DNA from: Hysterangium stoloniferum
Taxonomy: Eukaryota; Basidiomycota; Agaricomycetes; Hysterangiales; Hysterangiaceae
Direction: 5' to 3'
Length of the DNA stretch: 64,000 bases
Assembly (NCBI GenBank): GCA_015178975.1
Contig: WHVD01000172.1
Location: 62,001 to 126,000 of the forward strand
Below the pieces are notes generated by a model. That model made no database searches. It worked only from the letters and a program-made list of their open reading frames with translations, and was not told the DNA's origin. A program made the translations under genes and the position numbers. Positions 2,739-52,253 of the stretch are shown here, piece by piece; the stretch's first letter is position 1; every line of letters starts with the position of its first letter.

Positions 2739-4364
2739 TCGTACCTACTCACGAGTATCCCGTCATTATTCGTTAGTCTATCCCGGCCAAAAACCACTCA
2801 CAATAATGTAGAGCACCTTGCCCACCGTCCATGGCTTTTTCCATACCACCAAAGTCTAAGTGAGAAAGAAACTTATTAAATAAAACGAGTCAAAGCAGCA
2901 ATAGTTCATCAACCTCGTCGCCTATATTTAACACTTAACGGGACGTCAGGGTTGTGCCTTTCGGCACGACTATGAGAGGAAACCTACGATAATCGTATAT
3001 TACAGCAGTGACAGCAGCCACCGTTGAATATTTTGATGCGTTTACTAATAGGCGTACGTTTATTCTAGAGATCCCCCGGGGACATCAAAGATATAGATTC
3101 ACGTACACGCTGTAACCTGAGCCAGTAATTCTTTTGATGCCATTGTTTGAGTGTATTGTTGTCACGGTTGCTGGGAGTTCGTGAGCTGGTTGAAATGTTC
3201 ATATCCATGCACTCTTCTTATGGTTATATAACGCCGACGTCAACTCACTTGCGGGAGCAGGAAGCGCCACCTGAGACGATGGGACTTCTGGGGCTATCGC
3301 TCACCTGACTTGAAGCGGTTGCTTGTCAGAACGTATTTTGCGGTCACCCGGCATATGCCTCTTAGAAGTATTTTCTTTGCTGCCTCACATAGAGATGCAA
3401 GAAGAAAAAGGCCTTAGAAAGTATGGTTTCTCAAGGAGTGTGAGTAATATACGGGATGAAAGTAAAATAACTACACAGAAATATTAGGAATGACTCCTAG
3501 TGAAGCCATATTTTGGATCAGTAGTAGTAATTCTTTATATTATATGTAAAAGAATCCGAAGGCTATTTCAAAGATAGTTTCATAGTTCGAACCGAGACTG
3601 GATGTCAATGGGATCCGAGTGTCGGTTCAATTCAGTTTGGCAAGGCCGTGGGCAGTGCCGAATAGCAGACAGCGATAGTAAGTCAGATAAGATCTCAGAG
3701 TTTCGTAACAACTGACATTAGAAGTGATGCCGCGTTTTGATTACTGATAACTTTGAACTGATGAATTGACTTCCCGCAGGCCTAATATCAACATATTGCT
3801 TGGAAACTTCAGGTTTCGAGCCTGTTTAACCTACGAATACAAGCGTCGAACCTTCTCGGAGTCTCCCCATTTTGCGGCTTAACAGATATCCAATTTACGC
3901 CCCTCGTCATAAGCTTATTTGGGAGTTTCTAGCCTTCAATTTTGCAGCATCCTGCTAATTTGTCTCTGGAGATATGTCTGTCGACGGTACGCAGCCTTGA
4001 GAAAATTGATACATTAGAGGATGTGATCGCAACATGCGCCACATCGAGGATGCTACAGTTGTATGGCTGGCGCGGTATCTGTTTGGAAGAGGAATAACGC
4101 AGGTATTGATTTATGCCGAATACTAAGCTTGCACATATCAATATATATATATATGTATTCATTCAAGACATTTGCAGAGTACGAGCCTCAAGGAAAGAGT
4201 TAAATCAAGCAAAAATAAGGAACGCATATTGGATCCTGGACTGAATACACACCATGGGGTTAGAGAAGGTTTGGAGATGTCGAGTATGAAGAGGATGTCC
4301 AACTTCAAAAGTGACGGAGGGCGGCATATTCTCCAAGCACAGCGTTCATTCATATGTCACTTCC
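2739..4364. other. No recognisable gene
   Basis: Reading frames are short and unlike known proteins. The segment 3,949-4,101 on the + strand gives a short leucine-rich frame ending in LYGWRG, which I cannot place. A short AT run lies at 4,141-4,153. Nothing else stands out. Confidence 0.4.
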
Positions 4365-4790
4365 AATCAAGGTTCTGAATTCATCTCACATTTTTTTCAA
4401 GCCCTTTGGAAAAGCACTCAATATGAAGTTACACTATACTTCCAAATACCACCTCGAAGTTAATGGACAAGCTGAATGAGTTGATCAGATGTTGGAACGA
4501 TATCTCTACATTTATCGTAATTATCAGCAGGATAACTGGAAGTTCCTTCTTCCACTCATGGAATTTGCATACAATAATACATCAAGCACTACCACTGACA
4601 TTTCACCCTAAACACAGAATACACCCCTGATATCATAATCCACCTGGAATGTGATCTTGCATTCACTTGTGCTCAAGACCTCATTACAAATCTCAATATG
4701 AGTTACATCAGGAACTTTGGATGGCTATAGTTTCCATTCAAAAACAATATCAATGTTCTGTGGACAAAAACAGGATTCTGCCACCCAGTC
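4365..4790 (+). mobile_element. Ty3/gypsy integrase fragment (fossil)
   Basis: The translation resembles the integrase-core end of the chromoviruses at 28,469 and 62,300: a SEFISHFF-like segment, a block like YNYQQDNWKxLLPLxEFAYNN, and then a block like LHQELWMAIxSIQKQYQxSxDK. Only about 430 bp remain and no LTRs were found beside it. It is broken, and older than the elements further right judging by its greater divergence. Confidence 0.75.
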
Positions 4791-20499: not shown

Positions 20500-21406
20500 G
20501 AGGACTGAGATTATGAGCGGGAATAGAATAGTGGCTGGCCTTGGACGCGGGAACTTGGGATGGGTTAGCCAAGGCGGTGCGGGTAATGAGTTGCCGGTGC
20601 TCCGGTATCTCAGGAGGAGTCTGACAAAGGGTAAATTTATTGGGTATGTAGCTCTGAAATGTGTGAGGTTTAGCTTGGAGTAAGGAGGAACATTTTCGAA
20701 CATACTTGGCTTGATAAACGGAATGCTATGTAAATGGAATTTGCATGCGAGTGTGACGCCCCTAGATGCGAGTTCGACGTCCTATAAGTTATATTATTCT
20801 TGATCTGCTATTTCGGATTTAGTAGCAGCAACATTATATCACAAATATACGTTTGAGTCACCAGTCGATCTACAGAACATGAAGTCGATCAAGCTGGAGA
20901 AAGCTTCCGATCCGAGTCAAGCGCCTGTTTAGTGATCGACGCAACAACAACCAAGCAACAACTACCATTAAATTTTTGCTCGTTAACACCCAAACATGCC
21001 CCCCCTAGCCAGACGTATCTGTCGAATATTTTTTCTACTTGACTGGAGCCTCGAATATGTGCCAATATAAAATAATGCAGGTTATGCCGTTATTTCGTAG
21101 ACGAGTTATTTGAATATAGTGGCGGTGCATGAGTTCCGAATCGGTTCGTGATTTCGTTTTAATTTCACATCACTTACATAGCATCATCCATCCGCTTCGA
21201 CCAAAAGAAGTTATGGGGCCGTTTTCGGTTTGATTTGTTGCTGAATATGATAAAGTAAATCGCACTGAGTAATACTTGTAAGGTGCCAATTTACCTTCCT
21301 GAGGCTTTAAAAGGGAATTCAATGTTATTTTACGGAATCTCACCCTTCAGTATGTCAAGCATCAATTCTAAAATACATTGAGCCAACCCATGCAAATATC
21401 TAACAA
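20500..21406. other. VWA8 upstream region, no other gene seen
   Basis: The first 200 bp stay open in the VWA8 frame and may be 5' leader or extra N-terminus. Beyond 20,704 only short frames occur, and no recognised gene or repeat was found up to the minisatellite. Confidence 0.4.
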
Positions 21407-21615
21407 CCAAGGAAGGGAACTAAGGAAGGCAGAGGACCAAGGAAGGAAGGGAGCTAAGGCAGGAAGGGGACCAGGGAAGGAAGGGAGCTAAGGCAGGAAG
21501 GGGACCAAGGAAGGAAGAGAGCTAAGGCAGGACGGGGACCTAGGAAGGAAAGGAGCTGAGGCAGGAAGGGGACCAGGAGCTGAGGCAGAAAGGGACCAAG
21601 GAAGGAAGGAGACTA
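21407..21615. repeat. Purine-rich minisatellite
   Basis: About six imperfect tandem copies of a unit of roughly 30-37 bp built from GGACCAAGGAAGGAAG and GGAGCTAAGGCAGGAAG. One strand is nearly all purine. Unit length varies between copies, so slippage is likely. Confidence 0.85.
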
Positions 21616-24879: not shown

Positions 24880-26253
24880 TCATTCACCCCCCCTGCAAGT
24901 TTGTTTCACCCTCATAACCCTCTGGCACTCCACTATTGGCACCCCTGACCACAATGTTACTGCCTATGGTGCCCCAACACTTGGTTTACTATAGCTTTCC
25001 CCTTTTGTCATTCCATCCCAATGCCCTCCTATCATCCACTCAATGTGTAAACAATATTTTGCCACCTCATACCTTTTAGTATACTTTAATTACATTGTAT
25101 TCACTTTTAGTTTGATCATTACCCCTTTCTATGCTTCCTTTGATCTGTCACTACTTCTCACTTCCTTACCTCTTGTTACAACTGGAATTCCCACCAGACT
25201 CCAGGCACTAACTTATACACACCCATGCCCTATACGCACCAATTGTCAGTTTACCAGAATTCCTGCTGGACTCCGTACGTCAGACTTGTCCATGTTTGAC
25301 TTCATTACATTGTGTATCAGTCATGGAATACCCACCGGACTCCATCCCTGTCTATGTCCGACCTCGTCCCACACATCAGTCACCGGACCCCACTCAGAAA
25401 ACCCATCATCCCTCTAACAGAGCCCCATTCCCATTTTAGTCAAATGACCTGTCACAATTCGGACTCTGCTCCCACTCCATTTCCTGCTATGGTTTATGAT
25501 TTGTCACAATTCAGACTCCACTCCGTTCTGTCCTGTTCCTAACACCAAATTTGGTGTTTACTATTCTCATTTTATGTTTTGCTAGTTTCATTTCATCATT
25601 ACTGGATTTGGTATGTTATTCATTCCACAGTCTATATAGTCTGGCAGATGTTGTACATACAATCCAGTCAGAAAATTGGCTTAGATTCCCCCCAGTAATC
25701 TAATACATTTTCCACTGTAAACTCCTCCTCAAATTACACTGCTCTCACTAGTCGGAGCCCATGGGCTCTGACGCATCTATCTCTTATTTATCTTGACTCC
25801 CTGACCTCTCAACCCACAACCTCTGATCCACGACCCCTCGACTCACGAACCCCACCTGGACTCCCTGGGATTCCCATCCACCTGTCTGAAATTGGACAAC
25901 ACGATCTTGCGAGGGTGCAGCCTATAAGCTGAAGCCAAGTCCTACTGGATTTCCCATGGGTTTCTCTGGAAACCCACCGTGTACGTACCCTAACACCTCT
26001 GCTCATCCATTACACCTTTGTATAAATTCCCACCATGTACACTACTACCCTTCAGTTTGAATATCAACTTAGATTACCCCCTGTTTAGTCTTCAGCCACT
26101 TTACTCCCTCTCTAATACCCTCAAAGACATCATCAGCAAGCCACAACTCTTTACCCTACAACTCTTAGCATTTCAGCCCTCTGGTCAATTGAGCTAAGTG
26201 TTGTCTTTAGTCCTTATCATACTATCCATTCTGCTTGAAATACTGGAGCACCT
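24880..26253 (+). mobile_element. Ty1/copia leader relic (fossil)
   Basis: Positions 24,880-25,173 and 25,996-26,250 match, in order, the reverse complement of the copia leader at 11,440-11,880. Shared blocks include AGACATCATCAGCAAGCCAC near 26,130 and a block around ATGGTGCCCC near 24,970. A solo gypsy LTR (25,174-25,995) and chromovirus A (from 26,254) are both inserted into it. The copia sequence appears to resume after A at about 34,430. It has no open gag or pol here and is older than the elements inside it. Confidence 0.65.
25174..25995 (+). repeat. Solo LTR, family A/B chromovirus (fossil)
   Basis: 822 bp from TGTTAC to TAACA, related to the LTRs of elements A and B and in the orientation of B. 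A 5-bp target duplication CCTCT lies at 25,169-25,173 and 25,996-26,000. It is more diverged than the LTRs of A. It was left by recombination between two LTRs of a former full element. Confidence 0.88.
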
Positions 26254-27072
26254 TGTTAGGATACACACACAGGGCGGGTTCCCGGAGAAACCCGCGGAAT
26301 ATCCAGTAGGACTTGGCTTCAGCTTATAGGCTGCGCCCTCACTAGATCGTGTTGTCCAATTTCAGACAGGCGGACGGGAATCCCGGGGAGTCCGGGCGGG
26401 GGTTCGTGGGTCGTGAGTCGTAGGTCGTGAGTCGAGAGTCGTGAATCGAGATAGTCGAGAGAGATAGATGCGCTGGAGCCCATGGGCTCCGACTAGTGCG
26501 AGCGGTCTGATAAGAGTAGGGTTTAGAGAGGAAAATGTATTAGATTACTGGGGGGAATCTAAGCTAATTTTCTGACTGGATTGTATGTACAACATCTGCC
26601 AGTTTATATAGACCGTGGAATGCATGACATACCGAATCCAGTAATAATGAGACGAAACGAGCAAAACATAAAACGGGAATAGTAAACACCAAATTGGTGT
26701 TAGGAACGGGATGGAATGGAGCGGAGTCCGAATCATGACAAAGCATAACCCATAAAGGGAAACGGAGCGGGAGCAGAGTCCTAAATCGTGACAGGTCATT
26801 TGACTAAAACGGGAACGGGGCTCGATTAGAGCGGTGACGGGATTCTAAGCGGGTTCCGGTGACTGATGCGTGGGACGAAGACGGACATAGACAGAGACGG
26901 GGTCCGGGGGAAGTCCGGTGACTGATATGTGTCTTAATGAGGTCGAACGTAACGAGTCTTGACGTAACGGAGTCCGGGCGGGAAATCCTATAAACAGACG
27001 ATTGGTGCTTGTAGCGCGTGGGGGCGTACGAGTTAGTGCCCGGAGTTCGGCGGGATTTGTCCGGTCGTAACA
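26254..27072 (-). repeat. 3' LTR of chromovirus A
   Basis: 819 bp, TGTTAGG...GTCGTAACA on the + strand. It contains the core block GGACTTGGCTTCAGCTTAT at 26,309-26,327, which read on the element's own strand includes TATAAGC, a likely LTR promoter TATA element. Confidence 0.95.
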
Positions 27073-27123
27073 GTATCCTCCCTTTATGCCGAAGTCCCAA
27101 AGAGGCTCTAGACCTAAATAAGG

Positions 27124-27232
27124 TTCTTGTCGGCTACACGCATGTGTCAAAAGTCATGTCGGTTACACGTATGTGTCAAAGAGTCATGTGATCTGGAAGG
27201 TAAGGTTCAAATGCAACGAGCCTATATAAAAA
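27124..27232 (+). promoter_or_regulatory. Candidate promoter of the antisense gene in element A
   Basis: A clear TATA box (CTATATAAAAAA) lies at 27,222-27,233, about 50 bp upstream of the ATG at 27,282. Upstream are two tandem 29-bp copies (27,124-27,152 and 27,153-27,181) plus a partial third. Each holds a dyad-like core ACACGYATGTGT. This arrangement suggests a dedicated promoter with duplicated binding sites, outside the LTR. Confidence 0.6.
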
Positions 27233-27281
27233 ATTGAAAAATAGAAATTTCTTCTTCTTCATTACCCCCATCTTCGTCACC

Positions 27282-28263
27282 ATGGGACCAAAACCAACAC
27301 CACGCAAGCCAATGCCGACAGCAGGGCCCTCCACGGGCACTCCGTATCGGGCGCCGTGGACGGCGGCCCAATTGTTGGCGCGGCGAGAAGAGCAGCGCCA
27401 GCTTCGTGAAGCAGCAGAGAGAGAGGCGAGGGAGGCTGAGGAGGCCCTGGACAGAGAGTACCAGGAAGCATTGGCCGCGGAGGAAGAGGCCGCAAAGGAG
27501 AGGGAGCGTGAGGCAGAGGAGGCTGCGCGAGTGGCCGCGGAGAACGCCCGGGTGGCTGCGGAGAAAGCCCGGTTGGCCGTGGAGAGGGCCGCCATTGTTG
27601 CGGGAAAGGTAAGTCCCAAATTCACTTGTCGACTTTTACTGACTTGTGATTTTCAGCGCAAAGCGACAGAGGTGGAGTCCGAGTCCGAGGGGGAGCCAGA
27701 GAGCCCCCAAAAGGTAGGCCTCATGTCCGTGGAGTACCCGTGGAGACTGACCATCTCAACAGAAGGCAAGGAAGGCGGCGCCAGTCCGTCTTCCGATGCG
27801 GAACGAGCCGCGGTGTTCCGGTTGCAACGACCGGAACACGGAATGCAACCGAAAGGCTGGCCAGGGGCCGGGATGTTACCAATGCACGCACCTCAAGGCG
27901 AGGTGCTCGCTTGTGCACGAGCAGGCCACGGGATCTGGGGCACGAGACATAAGCGGGACGGACGGGTTGTCCGGGTTGGACGAGGTTCTTGGACGGATCG
28001 CCGAGGGCATCGAGGCCCAAAACGAGTTGCTCCGGAAGAGCAACAAGGTCCAAATTGTGGTGGCAAAGGAGCTGTCCGGACTCCGCAAGGAGTTTTGGAA
28101 GTTCCTGGTGGAGTATGGTGGCTATGTCTATAAGGAGCCGCAAGTCGGGAGTTCCGAGGATGCCGGATCGGATGAGGACAGGGTTGCCGCGGGGGTCGCG
28201 GAGCTCCCAGAGGAGATAGCAGAGGAAGCAGGGAAAAAGAACAGTCCCATAAATGTAGACTGA
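27282..28263 (+). CDS. Antisense cargo gene in chromovirus A: coiled coil plus Cys6 cluster
   Basis: It lies opposite to gag-pol, between the pol stop (28,469) and the 3' LTR. The start context CACCATGGG is very strong and a TATA box sits 50 bp upstream. Three exons (27282-27608, 27657-27713, 27763-28263) are separated by GT-AG introns of 48 and 49 nt, all in phase 0, giving 294 aa. Residues 1-30 are proline-rich; about 35-108 form a Glu/Ala/Arg heptad-like coiled coil; an acidic linker follows. Residues about 143-173 hold a CX2CX6CX9CX2CX6C cluster, the spacing of fungal Zn2Cys6 DNA-binding domains. The rest is acidic with a second helical stretch. Mushroom genomes carry many such Cys-cluster proteins of unknown role. 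A DNA- or RNA-binding regulator is inference. Element B keeps the same gene as a relic. Confidence 0.72.
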
Positions 28264-28468
28264 AAAAGTAGTATAGAATAAAAATAACTGAATCATAAAA
28301 GTAAAGCGTGAAAGAAAACATAAAAATAAAAGTCAAAGCCAAAGTCCGCGGAGAGTCCGCTTAAAGACTTGATTGACATGTCAGAACCTGTAAAAGCAAA
28401 GAGAGACATAGGGCGACAGGGAATAGTGAAAATGAGTCCAAACGTAACATGGGGTCCGCGGAGTGCGG

Positions 28469-31400
28469 TCAGAGAGACGATAATGGTCCAGGTTTGAGTG
28501 GGTAAGCTGTATGAAAGTCAGTAACGATTTCCGTGGCATTACCGAGTTCCGTGGCCAAAATCCATGAGGTTTCTTCATCAGTGCCCTCGTAACCCGCCCA
28601 CTTGACCAAGTAAAGCAGTTTACAAGTGCGTCGACGCTTGTCAATTTTTGAATCTAAAATCTGCGAGATTTCAAACTCGGGTTCTCCATCAATGACGACA
28701 GGAGGAGGCGGAGATTGCATGCGATCCGGGATAGTGTTAGCAGTACAAGGTTCTAGCATAGAGACATGAAATACCGGGTGTACCGCGCGCATGCTATCCG
28801 GAAGCCGTAGAGTCCAAGAAACTGAACCTACTTGTGCGATAATTTCAAAGGGACCTAAATATTTTTCAGCAAGCTTCTTTGATGGACGGGTAGTCCGGAA
28901 GAATTGAGCTTTGACATAAACACGGTCGCCAATCTTGAAGTTTGGTGGCGGGATCCGGTGTTTGTCCGCTGAATGTTGGTATTGCTCTTGGGCGGACAGT
29001 ATTGCAGTCCGGAGTTCCTCATGGAGCTCGTGGAGGTCCGTGGTGAACTCTTGAGCATGAACAGAGGCGAGATTTCGTTCTGGATGTACTGTAATGTTTG
29101 GATTATATCCTTTATTTGCAAAGAACGGGGAAATGCCAGTAGTGGCCGAGGGTGCATTGTTGTAAGCAAACTCTGCAAGTGGTAACAAGGTTTTCCAATT
29201 GTCCTGTTGATAGTTGCAATATACGTGGAGGTATTGTTCCAATGTCTGGTTGACGCGTTCGGTTTGTCCGTCACCTTCCGGGTGATGTCCGGACGTGAAA
29301 TGTAATGTCATGTCCAAGGATTTTCCGAGGGATCTAAAGAAGTGAGACACGAACTCTGATCCTCTATCGGACGTCATGTGGGACGGAACTCCGTGCTTGG
29401 AAAATACGTGGATAATGAAAAGTTCCGCTAACTGCATGGACATAATTGTATCATAAGTAGGGATGAATATACCTTGTTTTGAGAATCTGTCAACAACGAC
29501 TAGAATAGCGGAAAAGCCTTCGGAATCCGGTAGGTGTTCAATGAAATCCATAGATATAGAATTCCACGGGTGTTCCAGTACCGGGAGTTGTTTCAAAAGG
29601 CCGTATGGCTTGTGTCGCTGAGATTTCGAGTGGGGACAAGTAGTGCAAGATTTACAATAGTGCTTAACGAATCCACGGAGTCCGGGCCAAGTATATTCTC
29701 TTCTTATTAATGATAGAGTTTTGTTGTACCCGAAATGTCCTGAGAGTGGATGATCATGTTTGTATTGAAGGATCCTGAGGCGGAGGCCGTCGGAGTCCGG
29801 TACATAGATACGATCGTCAAGTCTAATGAAACCATGTTGATCAAGAGACCACCGAGGTTGATCGGGGTCCACGGGATTGTCCAGATGAGCTTTAGTAACT
29901 GGGTCTAGCGGAATTGCCGATAGAATATCTTGATGTAACTTCTCGATATCCATAATGATAATTCCACGGACAATGGGATTGACCAGGAAAGTTGCGTGGA
30001 CCGATGCGGTAAGTTGTTGATTCGTGAAAATAGGTTTCAGGTTGTGCGGATTTACCGTTGCATAGTCGTTGCTCCCCTCTTTAGGATAGACGTCCCATCG
30101 TCTAGTTAAAGCGTCGGGTTTGCCGCCGAGACGGCCGGGTCGAAAACGGATAATCATGTTGAAGGCGGAGAGATATTCAGACCAGCGGGCCTGCCGACGG
30201 GTCAAGAGTTTTGTGGTAGAAAAGTATTCCAGGTTTTTGTGATCTGTTACAATGTCAATAGGAGCTCCTGAACCTTCCAAATAGTGTCGCCACGCTTTGA
30301 AAGCTGAAAAGATTGCCAGAAGTTCTTTATCATGAACGTCGTAGTTGAGCTCTGCTCCGGTAAAAGTCCGGGACAGAAAAGCCACGGGGTGGACTTCTCC
30401 GTCGGAGTCCTGGATAGAGAGAATGGCTCCAAGTGCATAGTCGGAGGTGTCCATTTCAACAATGAGCGGGAAGTCCGGTTTCCAATGCGACAGAATAGGA
30501 GCTGTGGAAAAAGAATTTTTTAAAAGATTGAAAGCTTTTTGACACTTATTGTTAAAGTTCCATGGAGTACCCTTACGCGTAAGACGGGTAAGGGGTACCG
30601 TGATGTCGGAATATCCACGGATAAAACGTCTATAAAAATTGGCAAAGCCGAGGAAGGATTGTATATCTTTAACTTTTCGGGGTTCGGGCCAATCTTTGAT
30701 GACTTGCACTTTAGTTTCGTCCATGCGGAGTCCATCGGGTCCCATCATGAAACCTAGGTATTCCACGGAGTCCGTGTCAAAAGTACATTTTTTACCATTT
30801 GCGAATAAACCATGTTGTCTGAGTCTCCGGAGAACCTCATGGACTTGTTTGTCGTGTTCCGCGGGATTCTCGGAGTAGATAAGAATGTCGTCCACGTAAA
30901 CAATGACGCATACATCGAGCATGTCCGAGAAAATGTCGTTGATAAAACGCTGAAAAACAGACGGGGCATTAGTGAGTCCAAAAGGGATGACCAACCACTC
31001 GAAGGCCCCATAACGGGTTCTAAAAGTGGTTTTCCATTCATCGCCTGCGGCAATCCAGACCAAATGATAGGCGTGCTTGAGATCTATTTTGGTGTAAATC
31101 CGGGCATTCCGCGGAGCATTGAGCAGGTCAGATATAAGTGGGAGTGGATATTTGTCCTTTTTGGTGACAGCATTGAGTCCTCTAAAATCAACACATAGTC
31201 GAAGGGATCCATCCTTTTTTCTGACAAACAAAACAGGTGCTCCAAAAGGAGACTTTGAGGGTCGAATAAAACCTATGGACAAATGTTCATCCAGGAAATC
31301 ACGGATTGTGGATAGTTCCGTGGACGAAAGCGGGTAAATATGTCCTAGGGGTGGCTGGGCGCCATCTTCAAGATCAATTTTTAAGTCGTATTCTCTGTGA

Positions 31401-32077
31401 GGCGGAAGCCGGTCAGCTTTTCGCTTGCTAAAAACATCCGCGAAGTCATGGTATTTCTCCGGGATGCCTTCTAGGTCAGCGGCTTGCTCAGATTCAGATA
31501 CCGGGGTTGAAAAACGTCCAGTTGCTTCATCAATTTTTAAATTGATAGTGAACGCCTGGGACCCATCCATTTTTGAAGCCCTAATAAAAGCTGCAGCATT
31601 AATCAGAGAAATGGATGGAGGTGCTGTGGGTTCCGGGGAAGCTATAGGTGCCGTAGGGATCACAGGAGTCCTCGAGACTGCAGGTGCCGGGAAGGCCATG
31701 GGTGCCGTGGAGGCCGAGACAGGCGCAGTTTCCTCAGTCACCGCGGGAGTCCGGAATGTTATACTGTTAGCTATCCAGTCAATCAACGGATTGTAGCGGG
31801 TAAGCCAGTTATGTCCTAGGACCACCGAGCAACTTGAGTCTAACTGGGTCACATAGAAAGTGACCAATTGAGATGTTCCACAAGGGAAACTGATGGGTAA
31901 ATCACAAGCTTGGGTAACAACTGAATTACTTGTGCCATCGAAGAGGCGGAGACCGACGGGATTTATCGAATAAGTTGACAAAGAATTTTTTTGCGTGAAT
32001 TTTGTATCTAAAAAACAATGAGTCGAGCCGGAATCTATGAGAGCTGAAAAAATGAATTTCGGGATCATATTAGACAT
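28469..32077 (-). CDS. pol: Pol polyprotein of chromovirus A
   Basis: One uninterrupted frame of 1,202 codons. In order it holds a retropepsin-like protease (DSG near residue 16), reverse transcriptase ([16 protein letters not shown], then YVDD near 405), and RNase H (with DASDYAxGA- and TDHKNLEYF-type motifs, about 540-660). An integrase follows with an HHCC zinc module and DDE core (about 780-1010), then a C-terminal chromodomain (YLVKWAGYEG, about 1150-1200). The chromodomain places it among chromoviruses, which target insertion to chromatin marks. Pol is in a different frame from gag, with a gap of about 116 nt between the gag stop and the first pol ATG. Expression by a frameshift or reinitiation known in the family is likely. 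Confidence 0.95.
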   Translation of the reverse strand: MSNMIPKFIFSALIDSGSTHCFLDTKFTQKNSLSTYSINPVGLRLFDGTSNSVVTQACDLPISFPCGTSQLVTFYVTQLDSSCSVVLGHNWLTRYNPLIDWIANSITFRTPAVTEETAPVSASTAPMAFPAPAVSRTPVIPTAPIASPEPTAPPSISLINAAAFIRASKMDGSQAFTINLKIDEATGRFSTPVSESEQAADLEGIPEKYHDFADVFSKRKADRLPPHREYDLKIDLEDGAQPPLGHIYPLSSTELSTIRDFLDEHLSIGFIRPSKSPFGAPVLFVRKKDGSLRLCVDFRGLNAVTKKDKYPLPLISDLLNAPRNARIYTKIDLKHAYHLVWIAAGDEWKTTFRTRYGAFEWLVIPFGLTNAPSVFQRFINDIFSDMLDVCVIVYVDDILIYSENPAEHDKQVHEVLRRLRQHGLFANGKKCTFDTDSVEYLGFMMGPDGLRMDETKVQVIKDWPEPRKVKDIQSFLGFANFYRRFIRGYSDITVPLTRLTRKGTPWNFNNKCQKAFNLLKNSFSTAPILSHWKPDFPLIVEMDTSDYALGAILSIQDSDGEVHPVAFLSRTFTGAELNYDVHDKELLAIFSAFKAWRHYLEGSGAPIDIVTDHKNLEYFSTTKLLTRRQARWSEYLSAFNMIIRFRPGRLGGKPDALTRRWDVYPKEGSNDYATVNPHNLKPIFTNQQLTASVHATFLVNPIVRGIIIMDIEKLHQDILSAIPLDPVTKAHLDNPVDPDQPRWSLDQHGFIRLDDRIYVPDSDGLRLRILQYKHDHPLSGHFGYNKTLSLIRREYTWPGLRGFVKHYCKSCTTCPHSKSQRHKPYGLLKQLPVLEHPWNSISMDFIEHLPDSEGFSAILVVVDRFSKQGIFIPTYDTIMSMQLAELFIIHVFSKHGVPSHMTSDRGSEFVSHFFRSLGKSLDMTLHFTSGHHPEGDGQTERVNQTLEQYLHVYCNYQQDNWKTLLPLAEFAYNNAPSATTGISPFFANKGYNPNITVHPERNLASVHAQEFTTDLHELHEELRTAILSAQEQYQHSADKHRIPPPNFKIGDRVYVKAQFFRTTRPSKKLAEKYLGPFEIIAQVGSVSWTLRLPDSMRAVHPVFHVSMLEPCTANTIPDRMQSPPPPVVIDGEPEFEISQILDSKIDKRRRTCKLLYLVKWAGYEGTDEETSWILATELGNATEIVTDFHTAYPLKPGPLSSL

Positions 32078-32193
32078 AAGTTTAACGAAAAATGAATCAG
32101 AATGTGAAAGAGCGGATGCGTTGAGGCGAGTGAACTCTTGAATGCGCAGAGAGGCAACGCAACCCCTAACCCACGCGGAGTCCGCGGGGTTGC

Positions 32194-33483
32194 TTACTCT
32201 TTTTTCGAATCGGCAGCCGGTTTATCCTTCGACGGGGTTTCCGTGGAGGCCTTGGCTGATCGACCCTTTGAAGAGTTTGCTTTTGCCAGCGGACATTCCG
32301 GGACTCGATGACCGGGTTTCCCGCACAAGAGACAGAGGTTGTTGTCCATACGACGTTGTCTTTCTTGTGGAGTCAATTTGCCATCAGTTCCGAGTTTGCC
32401 TGAGAGGTCGGGTTTTCCGGCTTGCTTGCCGGACTGTTGACCCTTGTTGTTGTCCTTGTTGTCCTTATTGTTGTTGTTGTTCGAAGACTTTTTATCGTTC
32501 TTCTTGTCGGATTGTGTGGAGTTCTGGTTGCTGGTTGACGAATTGGTGTTATTGTTTTTGTCCTTGGACTTGTTTATTTTGTCCGCGGATGTCTCGCGGG
32601 CAACTTCCGCGTGACGTTCCCAATAACGTGCATCCGCGTTTTGAGCTTTGAGGCGCATACGGGACAGGGTTTTTGGCTTGCCATCTTCTCCTTTCGAGAC
32701 TTCGTCTTTAAGGCGGGACGGCAGACCGGCGTAGAATTGGTGGCGGAGAGCGGGATCACCCCACTGACAACGAGCTGCAAGATTATTGAATTGGACGATG
32801 TAGTCCGTGATGCGCTGCGTGTCCTTCATGCGAAGATTTGTGAGACTATTCTCGGCTTCTCCTGTCGGGTCATACGGGCCGAAGTTGGTTTCAAGCTCCT
32901 CAACAAAAGCTTCCCAATTTTCAAGCCAGAGCGGCTCTTCCTCGGTAATCCCGCTAAAAGCCAGTTCGAACCATTTCAACGCGGATCCCGACAAATATGA
33001 AAGTGCGTAGTTGACTTTTCGGGAGTCCGTGGAGAATGCAGCGGCGCGATCGCGGAAATTGAAGCGACATTGCATGAGGAAAGTAGAGAGTTTGTTTGGG
33101 TTGAAACCCGTGAAGGGTTCCGGAGCATTGACTTTTGACCGTGGAGGTTCTTGTTCCTTTCTTTTTCGTTCTTCTAGCAGGTGCATCATGAATTTATCTA
33201 TAGTACCTGCTAAAAACTCAGAAGTAGGATCCCTCGTGTGCGGTCGTTGAAAAGGCGGAGGATTTTCAGGAGGGATTTCGACACCTTTGCCCTTGTCGGG
33301 GGCCACGGAATCGTCCTTGCGCTCGGATTCGTCCAGGTCTTCTGGGATTTCTTCGATGCGGGCTTCTTCCATGGGTTCCGACTGGTTCGCAAGCGTCTGA
33401 CTGGTATACAGAGTTAACGGGGAATGAAGAGTCGACGGTCCAGGTATTGATGACTGTGCGCGTGTACTTCTTCTTGGTGGCAT
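32194..33483 (-). CDS. gag: Gag polyprotein of chromovirus A
   Basis: A 429-codon uninterrupted frame starting only 46 nt inside the 5' LTR (on the - strand). It has a Retrotrans_gag-type helical core (about residues 110-260, with ALSYLSGSALKWFE), an Asn/Ser/Lys-rich low-complexity linker, and one CCHC zinc knuckle, CLLCGKPGHRVPEC, near the C-terminus. This is the expected nucleocapsid arrangement for a Ty3/gypsy element. Confidence 0.95.
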   Translation of the reverse strand: MPPRRSTRAQSSIPGPSTLHSPLTLYTSQTLANQSEPMEEARIEEIPEDLDESERKDDSVAPDKGKGVEIPPENPPPFQRPHTRDPTSEFLAGTIDKFMMHLLEERKRKEQEPPRSKVNAPEPFTGFNPNKLSTFLMQCRFNFRDRAAAFSTDSRKVNYALSYLSGSALKWFELAFSGITEEEPLWLENWEAFVEELETNFGPYDPTGEAENSLTNLRMKDTQRITDYIVQFNNLAARCQWGDPALRHQFYAGLPSRLKDEVSKGEDGKPKTLSRMRLKAQNADARYWERHAEVARETSADKINKSKDKNNNTNSSTSNQNSTQSDKKNDKKSSNNNNNKDNKDNNKGQQSGKQAGKPDLSGKLGTDGKLTPQERQRRMDNNLCLLCGKPGHRVPECPLAKANSSKGRSAKASTETPSKDKPAADSKKE

Positions 33484-33529
33484 AATGAAAACAATCTGCG
33501 AGTATTAGTCAGAAAATACTGTTAGGATA

Positions 33530-34338
33530 CACACACAGGGCGGGTTCCCGGAGAAACCCACGGAATATCCGGTAGGACTTGGCTTCAGCTTATAGGCTGC
33601 ACCCTCGCTAGATCGTGTTGTCCAATTTCAGACAGGCGGACGGGAATCCCGGGGAGTCCGGGTGGGGGTTCGTGGGTCGTGAGTCGTAGGTCATGAGTCA
33701 AGAGTCGTGAATCGAGATAGTCGAGAGAGATAGATGCGCCGGAGCCCGTGGGCTCCGACTAGTGCGAGCGGTCTGATAAGAGTAGGGTTTAGAGAGGAAA
33801 ATGTATTAGATTACTGGGGGGAATCTAAGCTAATTTTCTGACTGGATTGTATGTACAACATCTGCCAGTTTATATAGACCGTGGAATGCATGACATACCG
33901 AATCCAGTAATAATGAGACGAAACGAGCAAAACATAAAACGGGAATAGTAAACACCAAATTGGTGTTAGGAACGGGACGGAACGGAGCGGAGTCCGAATC
34001 GTGACAAAGCATAACCCATAAAGGGAAACGGAGCGGGAGCGGAGTCCTAAATCGTGACAGGTCATTTGACTAAAACGGGAACGGGGCTCGATTAGAGCGG
34101 TGACGGGATTCTAAGCGGGTTCCGGTGACTGATGCGTGGGACGAAGACGGACATAGACAGAGACGGGGTCCGGGGGAAGTCCGGTGACTGATATGTGTCT
34201 TAATGAGGTCGAACGTAACAAGTCTTGACGTAACGGAGTCCGGGCGGGAAATCCTATAAACAGACAATTGGTGCTTGTAGCGCGTGGGGGCATACAAGTT
34301 AGTGCCTGGAGTCCAGCGGGATTTGTCCGGTCGTAACA
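33530..34338 (-). repeat. 5' LTR of chromovirus A
   Basis: 809 bp. It is directly repeated with 26,254-27,072, and the target duplication CACCT follows at 34,339-34,343. It would drive the gag-pol transcript leftwards. The core block with the TATAA element is at 33,576-33,607. Confidence 0.95.
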
Positions 34339-34343
34339 CACCT

Positions 34344-34737: not shown

Positions 34738-34742
34738 GTATG

Positions 34743-35489
34743 TGTTAAGAACTGAAAACTGACTAATGTCGGTGGGCCGATGGGGACCGATCAGAAGGAC
34801 TTGGCTTCAGCTTATGTGCTGTGCCCTCGCAGTTATCTGTTGGGTGTCCTTAAATTTTGGGTGGGTGAAGACTAGTCCTAATGAATACCTCTTGGCGAAA
34901 CTACTGATCGGAAATGAAGGATAAGTCGAGTGTCGGGCCAAGGGGTCAGAGGCCGAGAGTGGGTGAGTGCATGTGAAGGCAGATAGTGGGGTACTTTAGT
35001 ATGAGACTTCTGTAGGCATAGGAGGGTATTCTGAGTCGATATTCTGATTGCCTAGTAACTACAACTACATCGGGTTCATATACAAGTATTTGGTGTCTAG
35101 GAAATACTAACTAGGAGAAGAGCGGAAAATGGTATTGACAAATAAGCTTGACTAGGAATGGAAAGGTCATGATTAGTTCAGAGGCTGTGGGATAACCGAG
35201 GGCAGAATTACAAGAAAAGGAAATAGTCTGAGGGTTACAAGTATATATAGACATATGTGAAACATAGAGTAGAGCAGATCATCATAATAAAAGGGACGTA
35301 TCAGAGTTTAACCAGATAGTATGAGTATACATATTTTGACGGGGGCATAAACAGAGTTTGATCACCACAAAGGCATACATCAGCATCAGAAGACCGACAG
35401 CTTCTGATGTGGGGACTTGAGCGATGACTTGAATCGTCGATAGGTGGGGATAACCTCGGGGGCCGTCAGGTTGCGACACAGTCGTAACA
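34743..35489 (-). repeat. Solo LTR, second gypsy family (fossil)
   Basis: 747 bp, TGTTAAGAACTG...GTCGTAACA on the + strand, with a 5-bp target duplication GTATG at 34,738-34,742 and 35,490-35,494. Its reverse complement matches 54,095-54,815. It has the shared core GGACTTGGCTTCAGCTTATG near 34,797. It inserted into the degenerate TGACATCACATG-type repeat tract. Confidence 0.9.
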
Positions 35490-35710
35490 GTATGTATGTT
35501 TGCAGATGTCATGGCAGATGACAGCACACACTGTTGACATCACATGCAGATGACATTGCATGCCAGTGACATCACACACAGACATCATCACATGCCATTG
35601 CAAACAGATGTTTGTGTGATGTTGCATGTTCATGTGACATCATCATGAGCAGACATTTGTGCATTGTCACATGGTGTTGTGTATGTATGCATGATGTTTA
35701 CAAATAAATT
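35490..35710. repeat. Degenerate tract of TGACATCACATGCAGA-like units
   Basis: Many imperfect copies of GACATCACATG, CAGATG and TTGTGTGATGTTGCATG in both orientations. The tract begins before the solo LTR (about 34,615-34,742) and resumes after it, so the LTR interrupted an existing low-complexity region. Confidence 0.7.
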
Positions 35711-39999: not shown

Positions 40000-42900
40000 A
40001 TGATGGGTGAAACTCTTCCATCTGAGGTCTACGTATCCATACTCACTGCAGATTTCTTCGAAAAGGGAGATTGGTTGAGTGCACACCGGCAGGACCTTGA
40101 AGGCCTGACCAAGAACCACCGTCAGACTCAGGGTTATCACGAGCAAATCAGCTCAGACTCACTCTGTTCACCTGGAGCTGACATTGACACATTCCCGTTT
40201 GATCCTGGAAACCCCCCCGATTTACTACTGTACAATGACTCAGATTCAGAGGACAGTGACAGCGATCTGGCATTGGATTCCCCCTCGAAACATATTCCTT
40301 GTCGAAGTGAGTGCAGGAATGTAAGCCTGTCCCTGCGCAAGGAAAGTAGGAGGCCTAGAATCCAATACCCTCGTCCCAGTCGACTAATGAAGGAGGATAC
40401 TACGATCCTTTATCGAAAACGGGATCCCCCCAGTGGTTACTCTAGCATAGGAGTTGCAGTGCTCCATGTTTTCGGTCATGTAGGAACTCCTGATTCACCT
40501 GACTGCATTAAAGTCAGAATGGACATGGGAGTGGATCTTTCCCTCATATCGGAGGAATTCTACAAAGGGCTGCAGGGCCAGTATAAGTTGAAACAGGGAC
40601 TCAAGTTACGTCTAATCCAGCTCACAGGTAATGCCAAGGTCATCGGATATGTTAATATTCCTATTTACCTGGAGGACGACAGTGGCATTTTACTGAAGTT
40701 CGCAGCAGAAACTTATGTCATTAGAGGAATGATGGTGCCAATTCTCTTAGGAGAAGATTTCCATGTTAACTACGAAATTGGTACCCTAAGAGATCAGCCA
40801 TTGGGATCTAGGCTTATTCTCCCAGGACAACAGGGTTTTATTCCAACCAGTTCTTCCAAGGAACCTCAACCTTTGACCTTCACCGTCAACAAGGCCCCTT
40901 TCGGGAAGCATCCGAAGGAGCAACCCAAAATCACCTCTCTTCCTGATAAAGGTGTGTGTACTGAAAGAGTCGCACGAGCCTTGGAAGACTGCACCATTGA
41001 TCTGGAGTCAGCCAGACTAGTGCCTATTTTTGTCGAGGACCTAATGGGTGAGGAGTGGATTGTCGAAGGAATCATATTACAAAATGAGGACGGTTCCATA
41101 TTAGCCACCCCAATCATGGCAATTTCAAGGAATAGCGTGTCAGTACCCTTGGCCAATCTGTCGTTAACCCCTAAGATTATCCGATGAGGGGAGACAATCG
41201 GGATAATTCACGACCCCGCTCATTGGGCTCACAAGCCCAGGTCACTTAAGGAGAAGGATTTAATGGCAGCCAGCACGACCAAGATTGCACACCTTATCGA
41301 AAGTCTCTCTCAACTTGAGGAGGACCATCAATCCACCTCAGAAAGGCCTAAGCCACCTGTTGAACCAGAGATTGCAGATGATTTTGAACCGCCCAGTCCT
41401 AAGACGGCCGCGGTGGCTGAAAATGAGAAACTGGCCTCAGAGGATCTCCACAAGCTGGTCAATTTGGGACCAGATATACCAATGGAAGTTCTGCCACATC
41501 TCAGATCAGTTTTGACTGAGAATTTTAAGGCTTTTGGAGTCGACGGACGGTTAGGGCAAGTGGAATGCAGTGTCCCTATCCCCTTGAAAGAGGGCGCCCA
41601 GCCCATCTCCATGCCTATGTTCCCCTCTTCCCCTGCCAATAGGAGAGTTATAGATGAGCAAATGGATACCTGGTTCGAACAGGGTGTCATCGAGCCATCT
41701 AAAAGTCCCTGGGGGGTGCTGGCTTTTGTAGTATATCGCAATGGTAAACCACGGGTGGTCATTGATTACCGGAAACTCAATCATCTCACTGTTCCAGATG
41801 AATTCCCTTTACCACATCAATCGGAGATCATGCAAGCGCTGTCAGGGTCAAATGTCCTCTCTTCTTTCAACACGTTAGCTGGGTTTATTCAATTAGAAAT
41901 GTTAGAGGACGATGTAGAGAGTTCAATCGGAAAGAGACTAATATGGCAATAGTTTCAAGTCATGTCACAGCACAAATTCTTATATATACTTTGGCACTCA
42001 AGACGACTTCTACACAGCCAAATCAGTTTCACCAAACAGATGACCAAAACTCCATCATGTTCAACACTGCATCGTCCTCCAAAGTAACCCTCAGTTCCTA
42101 CTCGAAACCGACTCTTCACTCCCAAATAGAACTCCAGCCAATAACGTCTCGCTTCTCCTCATCCTCAGACATCATTTCCAAGCCCTTACCAGCCCACTCA
42201 TGCTCCTCCAAGAAATACCATCGCTTCCTCTGTCGACAAGGTATTCGACTCCCATATGCTCCAGACGATCCTGTCTTCATTCGTATAGAGCACTATGATG
42301 GCTCCTCGGAAATCCTCCACTATCGATTTGATCGAGTGTTCCAGCAGGACTGTTCCCCACCGTCATCAGGAATCTATTACATGGCAATGTTCACTCCAGT
42401 AGGAGATCACAGAGGACCCAAGTTATTTAGGACCCCGGTTCCAGAGGGAAGTCAAGTAGAGCCTCGTCGAGGTCGTCGTCGATTCGTGTTCCTTGCGTGG
42501 TTGTGGAGCCTACTCACCACCTGGTTCTAAATGGTGATTGATTGTGTCCCCTCCTTATACTGCAAAACTAGGAACACAATACGTCCAATCTCGGTTCATC
42601 GATTGGTAATATTGTCAAGATTTCGAAATCAAGCATAGCATTTGAGGGTGACGCACTATCGTGGGATTCTTGTGTTTCTGACTCATATCATCGATGTTTC
42701 ATCAGCCATCACTTCTATTACTCCATCATCCCTATTGTCTGACTCACTTCCCCTATTGTTCTATTGTGTTTCCCCATTTATCCGTATCACATGTCTGATC
42801 TCATCTTTTGTTTGTCATTCTCTTATTGTTCAGTGCAGCCTCCCCCTATTTTTGTTCACAGCTTTACTAACACTCCTATTGTGATGACTCAGAGATGACT

Positions 42901-45660
42901 CACACCATATCACATTGTTATTGTGTCGTTGTTTGTAGATGTTTGTTTTTACCTGTGCTCTCTCATGTATATAAGGGCCTCTCTTTGCCCACTATTGAAC
43001 AAGCAATTTCGTTGTATCTCATTTTGAAGCTCATTCTTAAGGACAATCTCTTAAGTCTTACTCTCAGTCTCACTCCTACGGCCAGTAAGGGATACTGTAG
43101 TGTCTCTTATTGTTGAAGTTCTACACTCCTCGACATTAGGCTTATGTCAGCCTTTTGATATCATCTTCGTTTACGTCATCCAAGGTCCGATCTCTAGCCT
43201 CTCGCTCCAAGTGTGTTTGGTTATAGACTGGTTTCAAGAACGACTGTGTCAGTGACCGTCATAAAGACTTGACCGTTGCGTGCAGGTTATTAGGCCTTTT
43301 CCTAGTAACGAACTTACAACGATAAGCCCAAAATAGCCTTCAGAGCTCACAGAGGGCTGTGGCAATTTAAAAGGATGCCGTTTGGGCTTAGAAACGGTCC
43401 CTCCACATTTCAGTGTGTTATGCAAATGGTTTTAGCACCCTACCTATGGATCTTTTGTTTGGTTTACATCGACGACATAGTAATATTCTCTAAGAATTGG
43501 GATGATCATCTGCTTCATCTAAATCAGGTGCTCAGTGCTATTGCTTTGGCTGGCATCACTCTCTCTCCCAAGAAATGTTTTATCGGATATAATTTGATCT
43601 TGTTGTTGGGTCATAAAGTATCCAGGTTGGGTTTCTCGACCCACCAAGAGAAAGTTTGCACTATATTGGAACTGGCCCCACCCACTAAGGTTTCTGAACT
43701 GCAACGGTTCCTTGGTATGGTCCTTTACTTTTTGGCATATATACCATTCTATTCATGGATAGTGTCCCCTTTATTCTCACTCCTAAAGAAGGGAACACCC
43801 TGGACGTGGACCACTGAACATGTCAGAGCTTACGAGGATGTTAAAGCCATGCTAGGAGCAGCACCGGTGCTGGGACATCCAGTTAGTGGGATGCCCCATC
43901 GGCTGTATACAGATGCTTTGGATTTTGCCCTAGGCTGTTGTCTCCAACAAGTCCAGAAGATGGCTTTAGGAGACTTAATGGACACTAAAATCTATCCCCA
44001 AGCCAAGTTGGCTTTCAACTGTACACAGGATGTGCCATCCTTCGGTCATCGGTATAAAACCAAACAGCCCGAGATTGAGTGGTCAGACTCGTGGGGACCC
44101 ACCTTTGAGGCGACCAAAGTTACAATTGAACGAGTCATCGCATATTGGAGTCGCACTCTGAAAAGCGCTGAATGTAACTATTCCGCTACGGAATGGGAAG
44201 CGTTAGCAGCGAAGGAAGGACTAGTCCACTTCCAACCCTTCATTGAAGGTGAACATGTTCTGCTCATTACAGACCATGCAGCTCTGCAATGGGCTAGATC
44301 GTATGAGAACACTAATCGTTGACTAGCTGCATGGGGGGCGATATATGCTGCATTTCCAGGTCTCGAGATTCTACACTGAGCAGAAAGAATTCACAGCAAT
44401 GTGGACCCACTGTCCAGACTCCCTCAAGTACATAACTCTATCTTAAAGTTGGTACATGATAACCCTTTTGAGGGAGCACACACTGGAGGTCAGCAATTAT
44501 TCAAGCTAATGAAAGACCGGTTCTTTTAGCCAAAAATGCTGCAAGATTGCGTGTCGTACGCACATACCTGTGACATCTGCCAAAAGACCAAGGTCGATCA
44601 CACTGCTCGTCAAGGAACCCTCAGACCTGCCGACATACCTTTTAGGCCTTTCAAAGTAGTTTCTATGGACTTGATCACTGGACTACCCAACTCATGAAAG
44701 GATTTGTATTCTGCAGTCTTTGTCGCCGTTGATAAATTGACGTGTTTCGCTATTTCAATACCTACTTTCTCGAACCTTACGGCTGAAGGATTTGCATGAA
44801 TATTTGTCAAACAGGTGGCCAGCCCCTTTGGACTGCCCTCTCGAATAATCTGTGATTGGGACAAGAGATGGACCTGCAGGTTCTGGCGGGAGGTCTGTAA
44901 GATTTATGGTACCACCCTTGCGGTATCTTCAGCTCATCATCCTCAGATGGATGGACAGATGGAGAACATGAATGTGACCATAGAACAGATGCTTTGGGCC
45001 TATTGTGCTTCTGCTAGGGAGAGCTGGTCCCAATGGATTGAGGTGGTTGTCCACACGTACAACTCAACCGTTCACAGTTCCACAAACTACGCTCCAGCCT
45101 CTTATTAATGGGACACCTTCCGAGAGGAATGTCTCGAGTTCTAGGAGGTGACAAACCCCTAGTTCCTAGAGAACTATCAGACAGCCCTATAGCTGACCAA
45201 TGGATTCTCGAACTAGAAAATCATTGACAGATGGCGCGGGCTTCAATCGCTCGAGCCCAAGAAATTCAAGCACGAGCGTATAACAAGAAGCAAAGACCTG
45301 TAGAAGATATCTCTGAGGGAGACCTCATATTGGTGAACCCCCACTCCCTCGAACTGGTGGAAGTCAAGGGAACTGGGAAGAAACTAATACAAAGATGGAT
45401 TGGACCATTCGAGGTCCTGGAGAAATTGAACCCTCAAGTATTTAGGCTTAAGATTCCCCCGGAGTATCCAATGCATCCAGTCATTAAACGGGACCATCTA
45501 TGGAAATACCAACCCTCTCCTCCCAACCTCGGTCCAAGACCCCAACTTGAGAACCTACAAGAGTTGAAACCAGATCATGAAGAATATGAGGTCGAAGCTA
45601 TTGTTGGACATAGAAAACAGCGAAACCGTCTGCTATTTAGGGTGCACTGGAAAGGTTAAG
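40000..45660 (+). other. Pol region of element C, split by insertion D (fossil)
   Basis: Parts in order: a retropepsin-like protease (40,450-40,800, with VDLSLISEEF); N-terminal reverse transcriptase (41,560-41,912); after insertion D, the catalytic part with YIDDIVIFS (43,340-43,800); an RNase H with a long internal insert (43,860-44,320); integrase with a zinc module and core (about 44,450-45,110); and a chromodomain-like end (45,570-45,660, FRVHWKG). Broken in several places. Confidence 0.85.
41913..43318 (+). mobile_element. LTR-type insertion D inside the reverse transcriptase of C (fossil)
   Basis: 1,406 bp with TGTAGAG...CTTACA ends and a 4-bp duplication ACGA (41,909-41,912 and 43,319-43,322). 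It looks like a long solo LTR or a short non-autonomous LTR element. It has a TATATAAG box at 42,969-42,976 followed by CT-rich sequence, and repeated CTATTGTT blocks. A frame of about 195 codons (to 42,530) is open and ends in an Arg-rich, then hydrophobic stretch; I do not recognise it. Confidence 0.7.
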
Positions 45661-45879
45661 GACCTGAAGAGGATTCGTGGTTAAACAGTACTAACCTCAG
45701 AAACGCTCCGGCACTTCTGAGGGCATACAAGGCACTGTTCAAAATCTAACGGAATATATGCACTCGAGGAACCATCTATTCTATCTTTTATTCCATTTCT
45801 TTCATATGTAACTTCCTTTCAGAAACATCTCAGTCGTTCAGTGAGCCATCTCATTGGTATTCTCTTTCATTTTTTCTCT

Positions 45880-51455: not shown

Positions 51456-52253
51456 TGTTAGGATACACACTCAGGCCGGGTTTCCGGAGAAACCCACGGG
51501 ATATCCGGTAGGACTTGGCTTCAGCTTATAGGCTGCGCCCTCGCTAGATTGTATTGTCCAATTTCAGACAGGCGGACAGGAATCCTGGGGAGTCTGGGCG
51601 GGGGTTCGTGGGTCGTGAGTCGTGAATCGAGATAATCGAGAGAGATAGATGCGCCGGAGCCCGTGGGCTCCGACTAGTGCGAGCGGTCTGATAAGAGTAG
51701 GGTTTTAGAGAGGAAAATGTATTAGATTACTGGGGGGAATCTAAGCTAATTTTCTGACTGGATTGTATGTACAACATCTGCCAGTTTATATAGACCGTGG
51801 AATGCATGACATACCGAATCCAGTAATAATGAGACGAAACGAGCAAAACATAAAACGGGAATAGTAAACACCAAATTGGTGTTAGGAACGGGACGGAACG
51901 GAGCGGAGTCCGAATCGTGACAAAGCATAACCCATAACGGGAAACGGAGCGGGAGCGGAGTCCTAAATCGTGACAGGTCATTTGACTAAAACGGGAACGG
52001 GGCTCGATTAGAGCGGTGACGGGATTCTAAGCGGGTTCCGGTGACTGATGCGTGGGACGAAGACGGACATAGACAGAGACGGGGTCCGGGGAAGTCCGGT
52101 GACTGATATGTGTCTTAATGAGGTCGAACGTAACGAGTCTTGACGTAACGGAGTCCGGGCGGGAAATCCTATAAACAGACGATTGGTGCTTGTAGTGCGT
52201 GGGGGCATACGAGTTAGTGCCCGGAGTCCGGCGGGATTTGTCCGGTCGTAACA
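51456..52253 (-). repeat. Solo LTR of the chromovirus A family inside a Tc1 element (fossil)
   Basis: 798 bp, TGTTAGG...GTCGTAACA, with a perfect 5-bp target duplication ACTGA (51,451-51,455 and 52,254-52,258). It is very close to the LTRs of element A. The order of events is therefore clear: the Tc1-type element came first, the chromovirus later, then LTR-LTR recombination. Confidence 0.93.

Follow-up and report, generated by a model that had tools for sequence, protein, structure and literature searches.

Comparative sequence evidence for a selected, intron-bearing antisense gene and a family-specific excess of CGG-type sites in Hysterangium chromoviruses

INTRODUCTION

Zhao et al. (2011, Virology 417:248) are said to have described brtn, an antisense gene of the Boty-like retrotransposons of Botrytis cinerea. 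Boty is a fungal chromodomain element whose antisense gene is in print, going by brief citations in three later papers (PMC7264820, PMC8365987, PMC4227169). Its host is an ascomycete, and we liken brtn to the gene treated here by description. As far as those citing papers describe it, the precedent covers an antisense gene in a chromodomain element, not splicing or a zinc cluster. The original prediction of the gene treated here had known of no described chromovirus with such a spliced antisense gene; brtn is a published antisense gene in a fungal chromodomain element.

Antisense additional open reading frames (aORFs) are described for the plant Gypsy elements Grande (gene23), RIRE2, Retand (TRP28) and PvRetro13; the gene23 product is given as nuclear and its gene as having its own promoter, and DNA binding is proposed for TRP28 (PMC7264820, PMC11963269). 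According to those accounts they are, like our gene, antisense, placed between pol and the 3′ LTR and kept in most copies. They differ in having other domains, Retand is not a chromovirus, and the CGG-type self-sites of our element do not figure in the aORF descriptions consulted.

HBZ of HTLV-1 is a bZIP protein made from a spliced transcript. It is an antisense retroelement gene (PMC11963269) whose promoter lies in the 3′ LTR (PMC7264820). The likeness is that of a retroelement antisense gene for a nuclear regulator, a role that is only putative in our case; no homology is claimed.

VANDAL elements are DNA transposons. In Arabidopsis their protein VANC is described as binding a short motif that has built up within its own family, and as removing methylation (PMC5735166). 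Our element likewise has a short motif accumulated within itself that differs between related families, although here the match of motif to protein is our deduction (PMC5735166 for VANC, in the part consulted). VANC also differs from our case in being a plant protein of another family.

Gal4-type proteins are Zn2Cys6 regulators. Our gene resembles fungal regulators of this class, such as Pdr1/Pdr3, in its six-cysteine spacing, in a helix-like stretch after the cluster (by eye) and in the CGG half-sites of its element; it differs in that its cluster falls below the Pfam cut-off, sits mid-protein and is encoded by a retrotransposon. A literature search over titles and abstract openings, with subscription journals mostly outside it, found no retrotransposon-encoded zinc-cluster gene and, within the same scope, no self-site system in LTR retrotransposons. 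Another published chromodomain element has an extra ORF too; the word ‘antisense’ is absent from the available text of its paper.

We describe a chromovirus of the truffle-like, ectomycorrhizal fungus Hysterangium stoloniferum in which sequence comparison shows a selected, intron-bearing antisense gene together with a family-specific excess of CGG-type sites. What is new here is the excess of CGG-N3-CCG in one copy of each of three families.

THE ELEMENT AND ITS ANTISENSE GENE

The window is a stretch of 64,000 nucleotides (contig WHVD01000172.1, positions 62,001 to 126,000) from a 111-Mb assembly of 554 contigs, which was the genome searched. It contains an intact chromodomain Ty3/gypsy element (chromovirus) at 26254-34338 on the minus strand. 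We call its family F1; F2 and F3 are two further chromovirus families of the same genome. The features of the element are as follows.

26249-26253: target site duplication (TSD) CACCT, 5 bp, left copy
26254-27072, minus strand: 3′ LTR, TG..CA, 97.6% identical to the other LTR
27073-27281, plus strand: putative antisense-gene promoter and leader, from the F1-F3 alignment
27223-27229, plus strand: TATA box-like TATATAA, 53-59 nt upstream of the ATG
27282-27608, plus strand: exon 1, coiled-coil-like, rich in E, A and R (by eye)
27609-27656, plus strand: intron 1, GT-AG, phase 0, 48 nt
27657-27713, plus strand: exon 2, acidic linker between basic KRK and KKARK
27714-27762, plus strand: intron 2, GT-AG, phase 0, 49 nt
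27763-28263, plus strand: exon 3, in which the zinc cluster is followed by a linker, another heptad-like stretch (by eye) and an acidic tail
27814-27906, plus strand: six-cysteine cluster CX2CX6CX9CX2CX6C, CSGCNDRNTECNRKAGQGPGCYQCTHLKARC, read from sequence
28264-28468: spacer from the antisense gene to pol (convergent), with two TCCGCGGA sites at 28345 and 28455
28277-28282, plus strand: AATAAA, which by eye might serve the antisense gene as a poly(A) signal
28469-32077, minus strand: pol, with protease, RT, RNase H, integrase, SH3 and chromodomain (Pfam)
32194-33483, minus strand: gag with CCHC zinc knuckle (open frame; coordinates placed by hand)
33520-34338, minus strand: 5′ LTR, LTR length 819 bp
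34339-34343: TSD CACCT, right copy

Pol gave Pfam scores above cut-off for RVP_2, RVT_1, RT_RNaseH, rve and Chromo. As in chromoviruses, the order is PR-RT-RNaseH-IN with a chromodomain ending the integrase, and the whole is bounded by two LTRs with TG..CA and a short TSD. The LTR pair differs at 20 of 819 positions. Full LTR pairs were found at 8 of the 21 loci examined, seven of them flanked by a 5-bp TSD (the exception is L018), and differences within these eight pairs ranged from 0/821 (L011) to 42/838. Copy L011 combines its identical LTRs (0/821) with a TSD and an intact antisense gene. The chromovirus clade with the antisense gene has been recently active.

The antisense gene occupies 27282-28263 on the plus strand, its three exons joined in phase 0 to encode 294 aa free of stops. 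The element coordinates confirm its orientation opposite to gag-pol and its position between pol and the 3′ LTR; with 43 copies whose exon 3 is stop-free and under selection (below), it has the position, orientation and retention of an antisense additional ORF. It ends 205 bp before pol, with no overlap. The original prediction of three open blocks with two phase-0 GT-AG introns also held, as did the cluster spacing of 2-6-9-2-6. The cluster sits mid-protein, flanked by two helix-like regions (by eye). The predicted TATA box is present, although at 53-59 nt before the ATG and not at -50.

Between LTR and ATG, an alignment of seven sequences has blocks common to the three families: GTATC..GCCGAA.TCCCAA.GAGGC..CTAGA, GTCGG.TA, TCATGTGA and ATATAA, the last kept in all six F2 and F3 sequences aligned. 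This putative promoter region (27073-27281) is the least diverged of the non-coding segments.

COPIES IN THE GENOME AND SELECTION

Copies. An exon 3 query matched at 150 of 150 scored places, these being the best 150 of 1303 first-look candidates. Counted by hand, about 39 of these 150 places carry a stop within exon 3. We compared 43 F1 copies, the window copy and 42 others that span the identity range and lie mostly away from contig ends, all without a stop in exon 3; since they were picked in this way, the intact fraction is biased upward and is no genome-wide estimate. With that proviso the gene is wholly intact in 32 of the 43 by our criteria, one of these (L017) having lost a cluster cysteine.

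The stops in the roughly 39 decayed copies are TGA in all but two. This bias is expected from C-to-T change at CGA and would fit CpG decay of methylated copies, which may account for part of the change only: CpG transitions make up 31 of 348 single-copy differences.

Introns. Both introns have GT..AG in 43/43 copies. Intron 2 measures 48-52 nt throughout, and intron 1 48-56 nt in 42 copies and 35 nt in L028. Among the 32 intact copies the intron 1 lengths fall into all three modulo-3 classes (10, 17 and 5), so that the frame is kept only when the intron is removed. Distinct indels relative to the window copy numbered 0 in exon 2, 2 in the 498 nt of exon 3, 8 in the 327 nt of exon 1 (4 of them multiples of three; 3 copies left out), 13 in the 97 nt of introns (1 multiple of three) and 33 in the 205 nt of spacer (5 multiples of three).

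Retro-spliced, intron-less copies were sought with a 15-base junction pattern allowing at most one mismatch, and none was supported: the pattern from the window copy hit 2 places, with one mismatch each, and the reversed controls more (3 and 2). Junctions of greater divergence would escape this pattern.

Substitutions. Among 34 copies more than 1% apart, dN/dS is 0.266 in the gene frame (exon 2, 0.145; exon 3, 0.232) and 1.37, 1.05, 1.26, 0.34 and 1.29 in the other five frames; the adjoining end of pol gives 0.19. Synonymous differences number 221 against 144.7 expected (sd 9.7) for the same mutation types placed at random, a count that 0 of 2000 placements reached. Differences common to at least five copies have an N/S ratio of 0.37 of expectation. 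The frame is thus conserved over synonymous change in other copies (dN/dS 0.27, splice sites in 43/43), as the original prediction needed.

The frame with dN/dS 0.34 lies on the opposite strand and shares the wobble positions of the gene frame. Coding on the minus strand in that frame was rejected, given the lower dN/dS and the GT-AG introns on the plus strand, and because intron indels that are not multiples of three would interrupt any continuous frame on the minus strand.

RELATED FAMILIES

A pol end with 71% identity, present in L015, led to locus L051, where the antisense gene is degraded. An exon 3 query from L051 found at least 151 matches (150 scored of 442 candidates) in families F2 and F3, F2 being the group about 86% identical to the query and F3 the group at about 60-70%. 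With pol 78-79% identical, F2 and F3 are two other chromovirus families. The chromodomain end of pol lies beside the gene in six of the seven loci L051-L057, L055 being the exception. Splicing placed by hand gave GT-AG twice in each of five loci, among which the gene is intact in L052, L053 and L054, carries one stop in L056 and is frameshifted in L057. In F2 and F3 the introns occupy the same two positions, again in phase 0, and enclose an acidic exon 2 (KRKA...SPK).

At the protein level F1 and F3 are 36% identical. All six cysteines are invariant across one sequence each of F1, F2 and F3, and the spacing is 2-6-10-2-6 in F2 and F3 versus 2-6-9-2-6 in F1. Between F2 copy L052 and F3 copy L053, dN/dS is 0.134 at a dS of 1.8. 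The gene was originally read as cargo. It is not a recent acquisition; it is an old accessory gene common to three diverged families.

Two automatic NCBI gene models of H. stoloniferum, which are not RNA, bear on the splicing. P0003 contains both exon junctions, REGK/HKAATPS and LSPK/KQKQAP (slashes mark the junctions), and P0002 the first (both by eye); the best genomic match of P0003 consists of split blocks in contig C537. Among the matches listed, two protein searches for relatives, each limited to 8000 candidates, returned only the H. stoloniferum proteins P0001-P0003; a third search, with zero matches, also missed P0001 of the same genome.

THE CYSTEINE CLUSTER

The spacing of all three families lies within CX2CX6CX5-12CX2CX6-8C, limits taken from the original prediction. 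Of five core cluster peptides, four had Zn_clus (PF00172) as their best Pfam family (E 0.024-0.15), at 12.6-15.2 bits against a gathering cut-off of 21; the fifth had no match. For the window core peptide it was the sole Pfam match, at 15.2 bits. With longer pieces Zn_clus matched 1 of 3 members (E 1.5), and unrelated families did better (DUF5539, E 0.065). Pfam found no match to exon 1 alone or to most of exon 3 (end removed), and NCBIfam none. A PDB profile search gave no significant match, with XIAP RING fingers at E 0.8 and Pho7, presumably a zinc-cluster factor going by the title, at E 8.5. AlphaFold models were of low confidence (pLDDT 45 and 53.5), with no confident fold. A whole-genome Zn_clus scan had 42 matches, none at antisense-gene places among the matches listed (by eye).

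The predicted Zn2Cys6-like character therefore stands for spacing and nearest family and falls short of the Pfam Zn_clus cut-off, at best 15.2 of 21 bits. Judged from its sequence the protein is Zn2Cys6-like, not a proven member.

DISPERSED CGG-TYPE SITES

CGG-N3-CCG. One copy of each family was counted. Observed and expected numbers are 18 and 3.5 in F1, 21 and 2.9 in F2, and 17 and 2.7 in F3; the observed counts were unreached in 200 second-order Markov simulations each. The pol genes have 11, 12 and 5 sites (F1, F2, F3) against 1.6, 1.5 and 0.9 in synonymous-codon shuffles, 0 of 500 reaching the count in each case. A scan of 31 spacings in three orientations left CGG-N3-CCG outstanding in all three families, and F1 is also elevated at CGG-N5-CCG (20 versus 3.2 expected; 0/200 simulations). 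Gal4, Put3 and Ppr1 use inverted CGG spacings of N11, N10 and N6, respectively; in the element these had no clear excess (4/4.7, 8/5.1 and 4/4.4). Four CGG-N3-CCG sites lie in the 3′ LTR, at 26722, 26850, 26898 and 26968. The spacer letters vary. CGG itself is over-represented in these elements.

Family-specific words. Within the internal part of F1, the 7-letter words most in excess are CCGTGGA, CCACGGA and CCGCGGA; among those of six letters, CCACGG, CGTGGA and AGTCCG lead. TCCGYGGA occurs 12 times in 27073-33519 versus 0.4 expected, and 0 times in six F2/F3 pieces; each of the 18 sites of the window falls within one or other of its two F1 copies. The two strands carry the motif equally (4 and 4), and its excess is repeated in F1 copies L011, L017, L019, L021, L022, L024 and L028. 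TCGG is in excess in F2 (114/53) and F3 (107/50) and not in F1 (55/61.6). The consensus elements of the yeast zinc-cluster regulators Pdr1/Pdr3 are given as TCCGCGGA/TCCGTGGA (PMC5539612, in part). The F1 word TCCGYGGA is the Pdr1/Pdr3 consensus site.

Controls. No CGG-N3-CCG excess was found at 1-15 kb, at 15-25 kb or in a distant Gypsy element at 41-46.5 kb of the window (1/0.8, 2/1.4 and 0/0.2). The control at 46.5-56.5 kb had one (9/0.5), its nine sites being distributed over a solo LTR of F1, an LTR of F2/F3 type and the margin of the second F1 copy.

Persistence of sites. Nine F1 pol sites were looked up in the other families, and 2 were at the same place in F2 and 3 in F3, which suggests that the excess is kept up by new sites in each lineage. 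Across F1 copies single TCCGYGGA sites are not specially conserved (mismatch 0.072 versus 0.062 in matched 8-mers; 400 of 500 control 8-mer sets had a mismatch as low or lower). RNA hairpins are an unlikely source of CGG-N3-CCG, given that the flanking bases pair no more than by chance. Because F2 and F3 are related, the site excess amounts to about two independent cases, each family being represented by one to nine copies.

NEIGHBOURING ELEMENTS

A second F1 element, 87-90% identical and reversed, lies at 56394-63995. The match to its pol is interrupted at about 60780-61453, its antisense exon 3 (63101-63598, minus strand) has two TGA stops, and it carries 6 TCCGYGGA sites. There are two solo F1-type LTRs: one at 51456-52253, about 94% identical and with six CGG-N3-CCG sites, and one at 25174-25995, about 82% identical, inverted and adjoining the 3′ LTR of the element. 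LTR-like stretches at 54095-54816 and 34741-35493 resemble F2/F3 loci, one of them near an end of the F1 element. The distant Gypsy pol (41563-45740), 25-33% identical and free of CGG-site excess, served as a control. A Gypsy integrase-region fragment at 4326-4789 is 56-64% identical to F1, and a purine-rich repeat array of AAGGAAGG units with 17-bp spacing occupies 21404-21577.

DISCUSSION

Our main reading is that this is an old accessory gene whose product would bind sites scattered through its own element and thereby regulate or de-silence it; we give it a probability of about 0.6. It proceeds in steps of unequal firmness. The comparison of copies shows a protein-coding, selected, two-intron gene in at least three families of the Hysterangium chromovirus clade. 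A TATA promoter of its own by the 3′ LTR likely drives a transcript, which would then be spliced. The introns would outlast retrotransposition because the genomic RNA carries them reversed and therefore unspliceable. The product is likely a nuclear zinc-cluster protein that dimerizes via its helical parts. From the site statistics we infer that it binds CGG half-sites, mainly CGG-N3-CCG, across the element including the LTR. By analogy with VANC, the closest working model, covering its own copies might activate or tune the LTR and its own promoter, hold off silencing, or both. The families have drifted to their own site flavours alongside their clusters, CCGYGG plus N5 in F1 and TCGG in F2/F3, and each family's protein may recognise only its own kind.

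A fuller version is self-recognition: the protein would coat its own element via dozens of CGG-N3-CCG and related sites, coding DNA included, protein and sites would co-diverge, and each protein would activate its own kin, making the system an independently evolved counterpart of VANC in a fungal LTR retrotransposon. We put this forward tentatively, at somewhat under even odds. A link between the antisense gene and the element's own DNA, via the CGG-type sites, is possible on the sequence evidence. That the element's own protein reads them is a correlation, and a host zinc-cluster protein could do so.

The last point belongs to a different account, in which the gene is real and spliced but its protein is a nucleic-acid chaperone, a nuclear-import factor or a chromodomain-linked integration-targeting factor, while a host regulator reads the CGG sites. 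The Zn_clus match of the cluster is sub-threshold, Zn_clus sequences are numerous in the host (42 matches), binding by the element's protein is deduced from site statistics, and a middle part that runs basic-acidic-basic would also suit a role as chaperone or in import. Family-specific sites within one host (TCCGYGGA in F1, TCGG in F2/F3) favour element-encoded recognition instead, and sites also lie in coding DNA; we consider this account unlikely.

It is distinctly less probable that base or codon composition, mutation bias or small RNA hairpins produced the site excess and that it has nothing to do with the gene. CGG is itself over-represented in the elements and single sites are not specially conserved, as such an origin would have it. 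Yet the excess survives shuffling of dinucleotides or of synonymous codons as well as second-order Markov simulation, F1 differs from F2/F3 within a single host, which makes a common mutation bias less likely, and the spacer bases are varied, the flanks have no extra pairing and the motif is strand-equal.

Antisense transcription, or dsRNA formed with gag-pol RNA, might be the function and the frame a by-product. Retroelement antisense RNAs can feed siRNA, according to one account (PMC7264820), and the antisense gene and pol converge. They do not overlap, however; dN/dS is 0.27 within F1 and 0.13 between F2 and F3, and the frame is kept despite drifting intron lengths, with the indel pattern given above. 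The purifying selection on the protein already disfavours this explanation, which we regard as very improbable. The idea that the antisense frame and its GT-AG sites arose by chance merits practically no weight: frames antisense to GC-rich coding DNA are often open, but this region lies outside pol, the splice sites are kept in 43/43 copies, deep homologues have the same intron positions, and the 43-copy splice-site and indel comparison, dN/dS and the synonymous excess reject it.

The function of LTR-retrotransposon antisense genes is treated as an open question in the accounts consulted (PMC7264820, PMC11963269). The present gene has a DNA-binding signature, and its element is correspondingly enriched in candidate sites of two flavours; function thus becomes directly testable. 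If our main reading is true, this would be a second, independent case of a transposon that marks itself by scattering sites for the protein it encodes, and an intron-containing gene would persist in an RNA-copied element by lying antisense.
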